Position numbers and translations under genes: made by a program
The notes under the pieces: generated by a model
Told to the model about the DNA's origin: nothing
What the model saw: the letters and a program-made list of their open reading frames with translations, nothing else
Databases searched by the model: none
Part shown: positions 10,833 to 14,229 of the stretch, piece after piece
How the letters are laid out: the number at the start of each line of letters is the position of its first letter
How positions within the stretch are numbered: position 1 is the first letter of the stretch
Source of the DNA: Dehalococcoidales bacterium
GTDB taxonomy: Bacteria > Chloroflexota > Dehalococcoidia > Dehalococcoidales > RBG-16-60-22
NCBI GenBank assembly: GCA_028706655.1
Contig: JAQTVW010000005.1
Span: forward strand, 1-39,298
Direction: 5' to 3'
Length of the DNA stretch: 39,298 nucleotides

Positions 10833-11996
10833 CTATTCGTCCGAGGAACGGTTACGCCCGCCCCACGGATTAGGGATTCTCGGTTGGGGCTGGGGTATAT
10901 TCGGAGTTACGGTCTGAATCCTGTCCGGCCAGGCTTCCAGAGTCGCCTGGATAGTAGTAGTCTGCCCGTTGCGCAGCACAGTCAAAGCGACAACATCTCC
11001 GACTTTCCTGGTGGCAAGGTAGCTGGATAGTTCTTCGACGGTACTGACCGCTTTGCCGTCCGCCGCAGTGATAACATCGCCGCCGGTACCCGGGGTATTG
11101 CCGGTTCCCGCGCTTGCCGCCTTCAGTCCTGCCTTAGCTGCCGGGCTGTCCGCCACCACAGTCACTACATAGATACCCTTATCTACAGATAGCCCCAGCG
11201 TTTGCGCAGTTGCCGTATTCAGTGCCAGCCCGCTGATACCCAGCCAGGGACGGGTAACTTTCTGGCCGGCTATCAGTTGAGGCAGCACCCTCGTTGCAAC
11301 GTTGGATGGTACCGCAAATCCGATACCGCGCGCGCCGCCGGAAGTTTCAATTGCGGTATTGATACCGATGACCTTACCCGCGGAATTGAGCAGCGGACCA
11401 CCCGAGTTGCCCGGATTAATGGCAGCGTCGGTCTGGAGCATGCCGGTCATGCTGGAGCCGCTGAGGTTGCGGTTCAGTCCGCTGATGACACCCACGGTAA
11501 TGGAATCATCCAGTCCCAACGGATTACCCATGGCAATCGCCAGTTGTCCCGGTTTAACCGTGCTGGAATCGGCAAGTTCGAGCGGAGTGATGCCGGTTAT
11601 CTGCGTGGCATCGACTTTTATTACCGCCAGGTCGTCCATCGGGTCGGTACCGACTACTTTGGCATCAATGGTCTTGCCATCGTCCAGAACAATCTGGACA
11701 GTGGTGGCGCCATCGACTACGTGGTTGTTGGTCAGGATGTGACCCTGGGCATCAATGAGAAAACCGGTGCCCTCTCCCATCCCGCCGCCGAAAAAGCCAT
11801 TGCCCTGTTCGGTGGTTTTAATGCTTACCACCGCCGGGCTTGCGTTATCGTATATCGCGGTAACGGCATCTTCACTATAGAGTACCGGTGTAGCTGAGGC
11901 GCTGTTCGGCGCCAGCGTAGCGCCACCGGCATAAGCCGCCCCGCCGATGACGAGCACCGCCAGGACAGCCATGAGAATATTTCTTAGTCTTTTCAT
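10833..11996 (-). CDS. htrA: HtrA/DegP-type trypsin-like serine protease with PDZ domain
   Basis: 387 aa; N-terminal signal/TM segment; catalytic His (ILTNNHVVDG), Asp (DDLAVIKVDA), Ser (INPGNSGGPLLN); C-terminal PDZ. Confidence 0.95.
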   Translation of the reverse strand: MKRLRNILMAVLAVLVIGGAAYAGGATLAPNSASATPVLYSEDAVTAIYDNASPAVVSIKTTEQGNGFFGGGMGEGTGFLIDAQGHILTNNHVVDGATTVQIVLDDGKTIDAKVVGTDPMDDLAVIKVDATQITGITPLELADSSTVKPGQLAIAMGNPLGLDDSITVGVISGLNRNLSGSSMTGMLQTDAAINPGNSGGPLLNSAGKVIGINTAIETSGGARGIGFAVPSNVATRVLPQLIAGQKVTRPWLGISGLALNTATAQTLGLSVDKGIYVVTVVADSPAAKAGLKAASAGTGNTPGTGGDVITAADGKAVSTVEELSSYLATRKVGDVVALTVLRNGQTTTIQATLEAWPDRIQTVTPNIPQPQPRIPNPWGGRNRSSDE

Positions 11997-12081
11997 CTTT
12001 CCTCCCTTTTCTCCGGACCTTATTCATCCCGGATATTTCCTCCTTCTATCAGCAATGATAACATCACCACATTAATCTGCT

Positions 12082-12097
12082 ATGAACCTTACATGAA
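12082..12097 (-). promoter_or_regulatory. Direct repeat TTCAT-N6-TTCAT (minus-strand reading) upstream of htrA
   Basis: Plus strand ATGAAccttacATGAA; 11-bp period typical of OmpR/PhoB-family sites. Confidence 0.6.
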
Positions 12098-12135
12098 TAC
12101 CGCATTTAATTCAGCTTTGCAAAGAGCTCGGGATT

Positions 12136-12151
12136 TTCATATTGCGTTCAT
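12136..12151 (+). promoter_or_regulatory. Direct repeat TTCAT-N6-TTCAT upstream of the response regulator gene
   Basis: TTCATattgcgTTCAT, ending 10 nt before TATAAT (12162-12167). Confidence 0.6.
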
Positions 12152-12161
12152 CTTGTTTTAA

Positions 12162-12167
12162 TATAAT
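12162..12167 (+). promoter_or_regulatory. Consensus -10 TATAAT of the response regulator-kinase operon
   Basis: Exact TATAAT 23 nt upstream of ATG 12191, adjacent to the direct repeat. Confidence 0.65.
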
Positions 12168-12190: not shown

Positions 12191-12862
12191 ATGAGAGTAC
12201 TGGTAGTTGAAGACGAAAGACACCTTGCCTCGATTATTAAACGCGGACTGCTTGAAGAAGGGTATTCGGTAGATACCGTATACGACGGCGAAGAGGCCGA
12301 ATACATGGCGGAAAATGTAGCTTACGACCTCATCGTCCTTGACATCATGATCCCCAAGAAAGACGGAATCGCCGTGTGTCGTGCCCTGCGGGCGAAAAAG
12401 GTCAACACCCCTATCCTCATGCTTACCGCCCGGGACAGCGTTGAAGACCGGGTCAAGGGACTTGATTCCGGTGCGGATGATTACATGGTCAAGCCGTTCG
12501 CCTTCAGCGAACTTCTGGCACGAATCCGCGCTTTGCTGCGCCGTGAAGCCGTGCCCAAGACTCAGAAACTGCAGGTCGGCGACCTGAAGTTGGACACCCT
12601 GACGCGAGAGGTCTGGCGGGGGCAGCGCGCAATCGAGCTGACAACCAAGGAGTATTCGATACTTGAGTATTTCATGCGGCATCCCAACGCCGTCATTACC
12701 CGTTCGATGCTGGAAGAAAATGCCTGGGATTACGAATATGACAGCCTATCCAATATTATCGATGTCTATATCCGCAGGCTGCGCCGCAAGATTGATGAAG
12801 AAGGCGAAGAAAGCATGATTCAAACTATCCGCGGCGCAGGCTACCGGCTAAAGAAAGCATGA
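12191..12862 (+). CDS. OmpR/PhoB-family response regulator
   Basis: REC domain (VLVVEDERHLA, LIVLDIMIPKKDG, MLTARDS, VKPFAFSELLARI) plus winged-helix output (LELTTKEYSILEYFMRHP, VDVYIRRLRRKI...IRGAGYRL). Confidence 0.96.
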   Translation: MRVLVVEDERHLASIIKRGLLEEGYSVDTVYDGEEAEYMAENVAYDLIVLDIMIPKKDGIAVCRALRAKKVNTPILMLTARDSVEDRVKGLDSGADDYMVKPFAFSELLARIRALLRREAVPKTQKLQVGDLKLDTLTREVWRGQRAIELTTKEYSILEYFMRHPNAVITRSMLEENAWDYEYDSLSNIIDVYIRRLRRKIDEEGEESMIQTIRGAGYRLKKA

Positions 12863-14229
12863 AGTTTATTAAAAGCGTCAAATTTCGCCTCACAGCGTGG
12901 TACCTCATCGTCATCCTGGTACTACTCGGGGTATTCAGCGCTTCAGGCTACCTGTTGCTTTCCCGCAATCTTCACCGGAGCCTGGACAACGCATTGACGG
13001 TCCGTGCCGCCGAACTGCGCACGACCTTTTCCATCGAACAGGGACACGCCATATTCGCCGCGCAACCGACCGACCTCATCCTGATTTACAACTCGCAGGG
13101 AGACCTGTTCCAGAGGTTCGGCCCGTCCGTGGAGCTTCCCGGTATGGAGGGAGCAGTCCAGCAGGCACTTCAGGGACAAGATGTTTTCCTGACTATGAAA
13201 GCCGCTGTCGGGCAGGAGTTCCGCCTTTATGCCATTCCTTTCGTTCCCGATCCCCGTAGCCGCCTCGCGATTATCCTCGGCAGGTCTACCTCTGAAATAG
13301 AGACGGTGCTGGACACCTTCCGCTATGTACTGGGCGTTTCCGGTCTTACCGCTATACTGCTGGCGGCTTTCGGCGGTCTGTTCCTGGCGACCCGCGTCCT
13401 CAAACCGGTCGACCGGATTACCCGCGCCGCGCAGGAAATCGGCGAACACGACCTGACCCGGCGCATCGATGTTCACGGTGAAGATGAGTTAGGCAGGCTC
13501 GCGGGCACGTTAAACGGCATGATTGGGCGTCTCGAAGCGGCGTTCGAACGGCAGCGCCAGTTTACCGCAGACGCTTCTCATGAGCTGCGGACTCCCCTCG
13601 CGATAATGCAGGCGGAGTCTACCCTCGCGCTCAGCAAGGAACGGTCGGAGGCGGAATACCGCAAAGCGCTGGAGCTCATTTCCCAGGAAATATCTTACAT
13701 GACGGCTATTATCGGGAAATTGCTCTTCCTGGCGCGCAGCGATGCGGGCAAAGAACCTTTAACTTTCGAGAGGACCAATCTTAAAGACCTGTTGACCGAA
13801 CTGGCGGCAGATATCGATGTGCTGGCGCGGGACAAAGACCTGAAGTTCACCCTCGGCGCCATGGAAGACCTGAGCGTCAAAGGCGACAGCGTAAAGCTGC
13901 GGCAGCTGTTTCTCAATATTATGCAGAACGCGGTCAGGTATACTCCTAACGGCGGCAGTATTTTCGCCTCGTTGACCGGGAAAAACGGCATGGCGGAAGT
14001 CAGCATTACCGATACCGGCATCGGCATTGCGCCGGAACACCTGCCGCACCTCTTCGAGCGTTTCTACCGAGTGGATAAAGCCCGCTCCCGTGCCGAGGGC
14101 GGCGCCGGGCTGGGTCTGGCTATCGCTAAATACATTGCCGGAGTCCACGGCGGCCGCATTGATGTCTCCAGCGAGGCGGGCAAAGGAAGTACCTTCTCCG
14201 TGTATCTGCCGCTGGAAAACTCGAAATAG
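12859..14229 (+). CDS. HAMP-domain sensor histidine kinase
   Basis: Two TM segments, HAMP, HisKA FTADASHELRTPLAIMQAESTLAL, HATPase NIMQNAVRYTPNGG, DTGIGIAPEHLPHLFERFYRVDKARSRAEGGAGLGLAIAKYI. ATGA overlap with the response regulator. Confidence 0.96.
   Translation: MKFIKSVKFRLTAWYLIVILVLLGVFSASGYLLLSRNLHRSLDNALTVRAAELRTTFSIEQGHAIFAAQPTDLILIYNSQGDLFQRFGPSVELPGMEGAVQQALQGQDVFLTMKAAVGQEFRLYAIPFVPDPRSRLAIILGRSTSEIETVLDTFRYVLGVSGLTAILLAAFGGLFLATRVLKPVDRITRAAQEIGEHDLTRRIDVHGEDELGRLAGTLNGMIGRLEAAFERQRQFTADASHELRTPLAIMQAESTLALSKERSEAEYRKALELISQEISYMTAIIGKLLFLARSDAGKEPLTFERTNLKDLLTELAADIDVLARDKDLKFTLGAMEDLSVKGDSVKLRQLFLNIMQNAVRYTPNGGSIFASLTGKNGMAEVSITDTGIGIAPEHLPHLFERFYRVDKARSRAEGGAGLGLAIAKYIAGVHGGRIDVSSEAGKGSTFSVYLPLENSK

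Follow-up and report, generated by a model that had tools for sequence, protein, structure and literature searches.

Two genes that diverge from a short gap, one for a protease and the other for a response regulator (RR) in operon with a sensor kinase, raise the question of whether the repeated TTCAT words between them are operators of that RR. The window, i.e. the whole stretch of DNA that was analysed (39,298 nucleotides from a Dehalococcoidales bacterium), had been given a sequence-only reading, in which these repeats face htrA on one side and the RR operon on the other and predict an autoregulated envelope-stress regulon resembling CssRS/CiaRH-HtrA. Our analysis indicates that the two repeated words between htrA and the RR-kinase pair are very probably the regulator's own predicted binding sites. 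That they work as operators of an autoactivated OmpR/PhoB-type envelope-stress regulon, with promoters of CiaR-like geometry, we regard as highly likely from the comparisons described below.

The type of switch is textbook, ordinary and well known; for the operator word, the regulon and the lineage we found no description in the literature searched, nor did we find there any described response-regulator binding site for Dehalococcoidales. For a two-component system that is so far uncharacterised, in an order that is largely uncultured, the analysis supplies a concrete predicted operator and a short list of candidate targets; short DNA and purified protein would suffice to test the prediction, and the organism need not be grown. 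Work on Dehalogenimonas calls for verifying the role of its two-component systems (PMC13390414).

The locus and its repeats

The features of the locus are as follows.

10833..11996, minus strand: HtrA/DegP-type serine protease, 387 aa, P0002 (PF13365 6.4e-36, PF13180 6.3e-16); divergent from the RR operon
12055..12060, minus strand: TATCAT, preceded by TGn and spaced 10 nt from TTAAT; likely the -10 element for htrA
12071..12086, minus strand: TTCAT-N6-TTAAT, promoter-proximal pair of the predicted htrA operator, at the -35 position (pattern and matrix)
12082..12097, minus strand: TTCAT-N6-TTCAT, distal pair of the predicted htrA operator (three- and four-half-site arrays in relatives)
12136..12151, plus strand: TTCAT-N6-TTCAT, predicted operator of the RR-kinase operon (best matrix score in the window; exact in five other ortholog promoters)
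12162..12167, plus strand: TATAAT as -10 element for the RR-kinase operon, separated from the second TTCAT by exactly 10 nt
12191..12862, plus strand: OmpR/PhoB-family RR, 223 aa, P0001 (PF00072 9.5e-30, PF00486 2.8e-27)
12859..14229, plus strand: sensor histidine kinase, 456 aa, P0003 (HAMP, HisKA, HATPase_c; 4-nt overlap with the RR gene)

The RR has the domain content of the OmpR/PhoB family, a receiver (PF00072) and a C-terminal winged helix (Trans_reg_C, PF00486), both above cut-off. The protease combines a trypsin-like domain (PF13365) with a following PDZ domain (PF13180), again both above cut-off; against TIGR02037 it scored 306.5, below the cut-off of 416.2.

A gap of 194 bp separates htrA (10833-11996) from the RR-kinase operon (12191-14229). 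As the sequence-only reading had it, TTCAT-N6-TTCAT pairs are present at 12136-12151 on the plus strand (TTCATATTGCGTTCAT) and at 12082-12097 on the minus strand (TTCATGTAAGGTTCAT); both are located in this gap and they are the sole exact matches in the window, where 0.09 would be expected from shuffles (0 of 100 shuffles gave two). The plus-strand pair does end exactly 10 nt before the TATAAT.

Each site had also been said to have the orientation expected for its own promoter. The pair quoted for htrA lies 21 nt (10 + 11) from TATCAT, outside the 8-12 nt that had been proposed. The minus strand continues as TTCAT-GTAAGG-TTCAT-AGCAGA-TTAAT-GTGGTGATGT-TATCAT, a three-word array (TTCAT-N6-TTCAT-N6-TTAAT) in which the distal and proximal pairs share the middle TTCAT. 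As the words run on to TTAAT and then TATCAT, we take the -35-position pair of htrA to be TTCAT-N6-TTAAT (12071-12086), which is one step of 11 bp closer to htrA than the quoted pair, 10 nt from TATCAT and within that range.

On the same strand we saw a short ORF (12027 to about 11900) with start ATGAATAAGG and a good ribosome-binding site, AGGAGGAAATATCCGGGATG. It begins ∼30 nt upstream of htrA and overlaps the htrA start out of frame; it is possibly a leader, or else a chance ORF.

Conservation in the order

Of 156 genomes searched in the order, 11 contain an ortholog of the RR (E < 1e-72). TTCAT-N6-TTCAT-N10-TATAAT stands ahead of the RR gene, 23-43 nt upstream of its start codon, in six of them: the window's own genome (G000) and five relatives with RR identity of 65-84% (G097, G096, G146, G148 and G031). 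The comparison with relatives, proposed earlier as a check, thus turned out strongly in favor of the predicted sites. Outside the exact 16-base core, the aligned 72-nt RR-promoter blocks of the six genomes are 34% identical; the 100% identity of the core is a selection effect, since the six are those with an exact match, and the informative point is the occurrence of exact matches in 6 of 11 genomes amid diverged surroundings.

The exact element was not found ahead of the RR gene in the other five ortholog genomes. G034 and G090 have an RR-side element that is degenerate or arranged in another way, and they retain the outward array; in G100 an array is present upstream of the RR without the exact promoter; G083 and G089 have no element ahead of the RR ortholog. 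Several ortholog genomes have a second array across the gap, pointing away from the RR; its form in G034 and G031 is TTCAT-N6-TTCAT-N6-TTAAT-N6-TTCAT-N10-TAAACT or TAAAGT. The gene on that side is htrA in G000 and G097 alone, where it diverges from the RR; in the other genomes it encodes other proteins, mostly with signal-peptide-like starts.

The element occurred in 7 of 11 genomes with the RR ortholog versus 15 of 145 without it (Fisher P = 1e-4, a guide only because related genomes are not independent). Order-wide, TTCAT-N6-TTCAT-N10-TANNNT had 57 exact matches versus 5 for the reversed pattern.

When the first spacer was left free (0-20) in eleven genomes, the 54 matches counted after removal of near-identical families peaked at N6 (24/54) and N17 (9/54); N17 corresponds to three words in register, the middle one being TTAAT, TTAAC or TTCAT. 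When the distance to TATAAT was left free (0-25) order-wide, N10 was found in 23 of 31 cases and N21 in two. N6 gives an 11-bp pitch, within the 10-11 bp typical for direct repeats of the OmpR/PhoB type, and N17 amounts to two further turns in register.

Occurrence in the genome

The genome of the window is a draft of 1.82 Mb (94.6% complete, 6.6% contamination). Genome-wide scans were made by pattern, and matrix ranking was done within the window. The pattern TTMAT-N6-TTMAT-N10-TANNNT has three matches in the 1.82 Mb (reversed control, 0), two of them in the htrA/RR gap; the three belong to the RR operon, to htrA and to C35:17194, ahead of a MacA/MacB-type export operon. The many equally good random matches that would have spoken against the sites were thus not seen.

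A matrix trained on other genomes only, with the window's genome held out, ranked the RR promoter first in the window (36.1) and the htrA promoter (12055-12086) second (22.5), the null maximum in 60 Markov sequences being 18.3. As the training sites were chosen by pattern, this is a test of transfer between genomes rather than of the motif from scratch. Together with the RR-ortholog core that is kept while its flanks diverged, the ranking backs the predicted autoregulation and control of htrA.

Five-letter words are short, and pairs without a -10 element exist elsewhere in the genome, so one could speculate that we are looking at chance repeats in an AT-rich intergenic stretch. We consider this extremely improbable given the excess over shuffles in the window (2 versus 0.09), the fixed spacings, the conservation across families of the order and the held-out matrix; for the RR-side site chance is effectively refuted.

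Exact TTCAT-N6-TTCAT pairs number eight in the genome versus one for the reversed pattern. Those at C7, C111, C118 and C100 are without a correctly spaced -10 element and were taken as chance or doubtful pairs. The site at C68:17320 has a matrix score of 20.3, but its second word is TTGAT, and it was set aside. The site at C104:6919-6934 (L122), TTCATCTTCTGTTCATCTTGTTTAGATTATTAT, is much like the RR-side site and has a possible -10 element one base off; located ∼250 nt ahead of an ABC-transporter operon, it is a weak candidate for a fourth target.

Genes behind the element

The operon preceded by C35:17194 codes for an HlyD-type membrane-fusion protein, an ABC ATPase and a MacB/FtsX permease. 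PF13437, PF00005 and PF12704 with PF02687 are present in one operon, as in a MacAB-type exporter; its MacB is split and does not reach the equivalog cut-off for fused MacB. In G097 this element is likewise followed by an operon of that kind, and in G146 and G148 the element is upstream of a first gene similar to that of the MacAB-type operon; G097 and G096 have in common a target operon with an ApbE-type gene.

In G097 htrA homologues at two loci have the element, and one of these loci has two arrays; the htrA homologue of G096 has it without adjoining the RR, the last spacer there being 11 instead of 10. No TTCAT array was found at the closest htrA homologue in G034 and G100. Overall, the element-bearing genes of relatives include htrA, MacAB-type, ApbE and lipoprotein genes. 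The envelope regulon predicted earlier is thus matched by a small, coherent set of envelope genes behind the other sites and by the htrA arrays of relatives, one of which does not adjoin the RR. The nature of these targets points to the cell envelope as the place of the signal.

Proposed control

From these observations we infer that phosphorylated RR would bind head to tail on TTCAT/TTAAT half-sites one DNA turn (11 bp) apart. The bound RR would take the place of a -35 element and, with its last half-site spaced 10 nt from the -10 element, recruit RNA polymerase. For the plus strand this would mean that the RR-kinase operon is positively autoregulated, and for the minus strand that htrA is activated via the three-half-site array, with TTCAT-N6-TTAAT as the promoter-proximal pair. 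Of more distant targets, the regulon would include at least the MacA/MacB-type export operon of this genome.

Sequence alone does not tell activation from repression, and a perfect TATAAT lies near the RR-side site; the RR could instead repress through its sites, either as autorepressor or as repressor of htrA. We find this quite unlikely: the element replaces the -35 element with a fixed N10 to the -10 element, the geometry of CiaR-activated promoters (PMC3091779), and there is no consensus -35 element ahead of the TATAAT, as a half-site occupies that place. Activation by the RR is the reading we prefer for both promoters.

More tentatively, and rather against the balance of probability, one RR subfamily and one operator code could run the envelope-stress response in this lineage: tandem TTCAT at 11-bp pitch would serve the regulator and exporters, longer arrays with internal TTAAT would serve htrA-type and other secreted-protein promoters, and half-site number and identity would set the response of each target. 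The lineage is one without a transpeptidase found: PF00905 (penicillin-binding transpeptidase) was not found in the window's genome (∼95% complete) and was present in 10 of 14 control genomes, so the usual peptidoglycan synthesis may be missing. An HtrA/MacAB-type response would thus belong to a genome that yielded no transpeptidase.

Comparison with known systems

CiaR controls htrA in streptococci (consistent with the work on its promoters), and CssRS of Bacillus subtilis provides two-component control of HtrA-type proteases together with the kinase operon. PhoB and PmrA bind head to tail to 11-bp-spaced half-sites over the -35 region.

The closest solved structures to the RR are DrrD, PrrA, PhoP and BasR/PmrA. 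Its best NCBIfam matches are TIGR01387 (CzcR/CopR/SilR; 261.4 bits, below the cut-off of 279.2) and NF041734 (RppA; 256.7, above 250). The kinase is nearest to CzcS/CopS (270.3, below the cut-off of 292.55), scores 229.3 against RppB (cut-off 400) and stays below every NCBIfam cut-off among the matches listed. The pair is thus neither RppA/RppB, with the RR alone above its cut-off, nor a CzcRS/CopRS heavy-metal system, with both proteins below theirs; also, in contrast to CzcR/CopR/SilR/RppA, the targets found here code for exporters and envelope proteins, with no recognised metal-resistance operon among them.

A CiaR model was absent among the best NCBIfam matches listed for the RR, and no CssR/CssS model was among the best 25 listed; by sequence, the RR appears closer to CzcR/CopR/RppA than to CiaR or CssR. 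Of the resemblance to CssRS/CiaRH-HtrA suggested earlier, the promoter geometry of the CiaR type therefore stands, while by the NCBIfam matches listed the RR-kinase pair does not appear to be an ortholog of CssRS or CiaRH.

The geometry used for CiaR promoter prediction is TTTAAG-N5-TTTAAG with ten nt to TATAAT; the likeness is in the tandem repeat of 11-bp pitch and in the exactly 10 nt to TATAAT (PMC3091779). The words differ, TTTAAG versus TTCAT/TTAAT, and the sites here do not have the CiaR operator form NTTAAG-N5-WTTAAG. In the crystal of VbrR, an OmpR/PhoB-family regulator of Vibrio, the half-sites are TTCTAAT and TTCATCG, i.e. a TTCAT half-site is bound (PMC10157535); in the literature searched for a TTCAT word with an OmpR-family regulator this was the sole precedent. 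The geometry equal to that of CiaR and the TTCAT half-site bound by VbrR are the reasons for reading both promoters as RR-activated.

Paralogous regulators and other arrays

Three genomes without a close RR ortholog (G086-G088) have 19 element matches, several of them beside paralogs 41-49% identical to the RR. The predicted sites may be genuine operators whose additional or main ligands are paralogous OmpR/PhoB regulators from the RR's subfamily; the regulon would then not be private to this RR. We think this unlikely: in the window's genome two of the three sites flank P0001, and the other two RRs found at E < 1e-40 are only 44% and 40% identical; G001, of the same genus and without the RR ortholog, has no element match. 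While the adjacent RR remains our preferred ligand, the many similar sites near 41-49% identical paralogs in G086-G088 indicate that the operator code may be common within the RR subfamily.

Most of the 19 sites (G086, L203-L205; G087, L206-L210; G088, L211-L214) are near-identical copies of TTCATCTCCCGTTCATGTTGGGGTGGTATAAT. They precede genes for lipoproteins, ABC transporters and other envelope or unknown proteins, and look like expanded, duplicated promoters. A role as reductive dehalogenase promoters was rejected, as no reductive dehalogenase was seen among the genes behind them.

At about 54% identity and below, homologues of the RR are mostly without the element, and some have other 11-bp arrays. 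Homologues of ∼50-54% identity at L016, L012 and L013 have CTTAA- or TTAGA-type 11-bp arrays upstream, which suggests a separate word for each branch of regulators.

Two further loci are of note. Near the RR ortholog of G090 (L138, 552-1937) there is a reductive-dehalogenase-like gene with a twin-arginine RRDFMK start, along with a further RR gene. In G031 (C10:66955-67333, L215), three tandem units of ∼173 bp, each with TTCATCAGGTCTTCAT and TATACT, are located ahead of a small membrane-protein gene.
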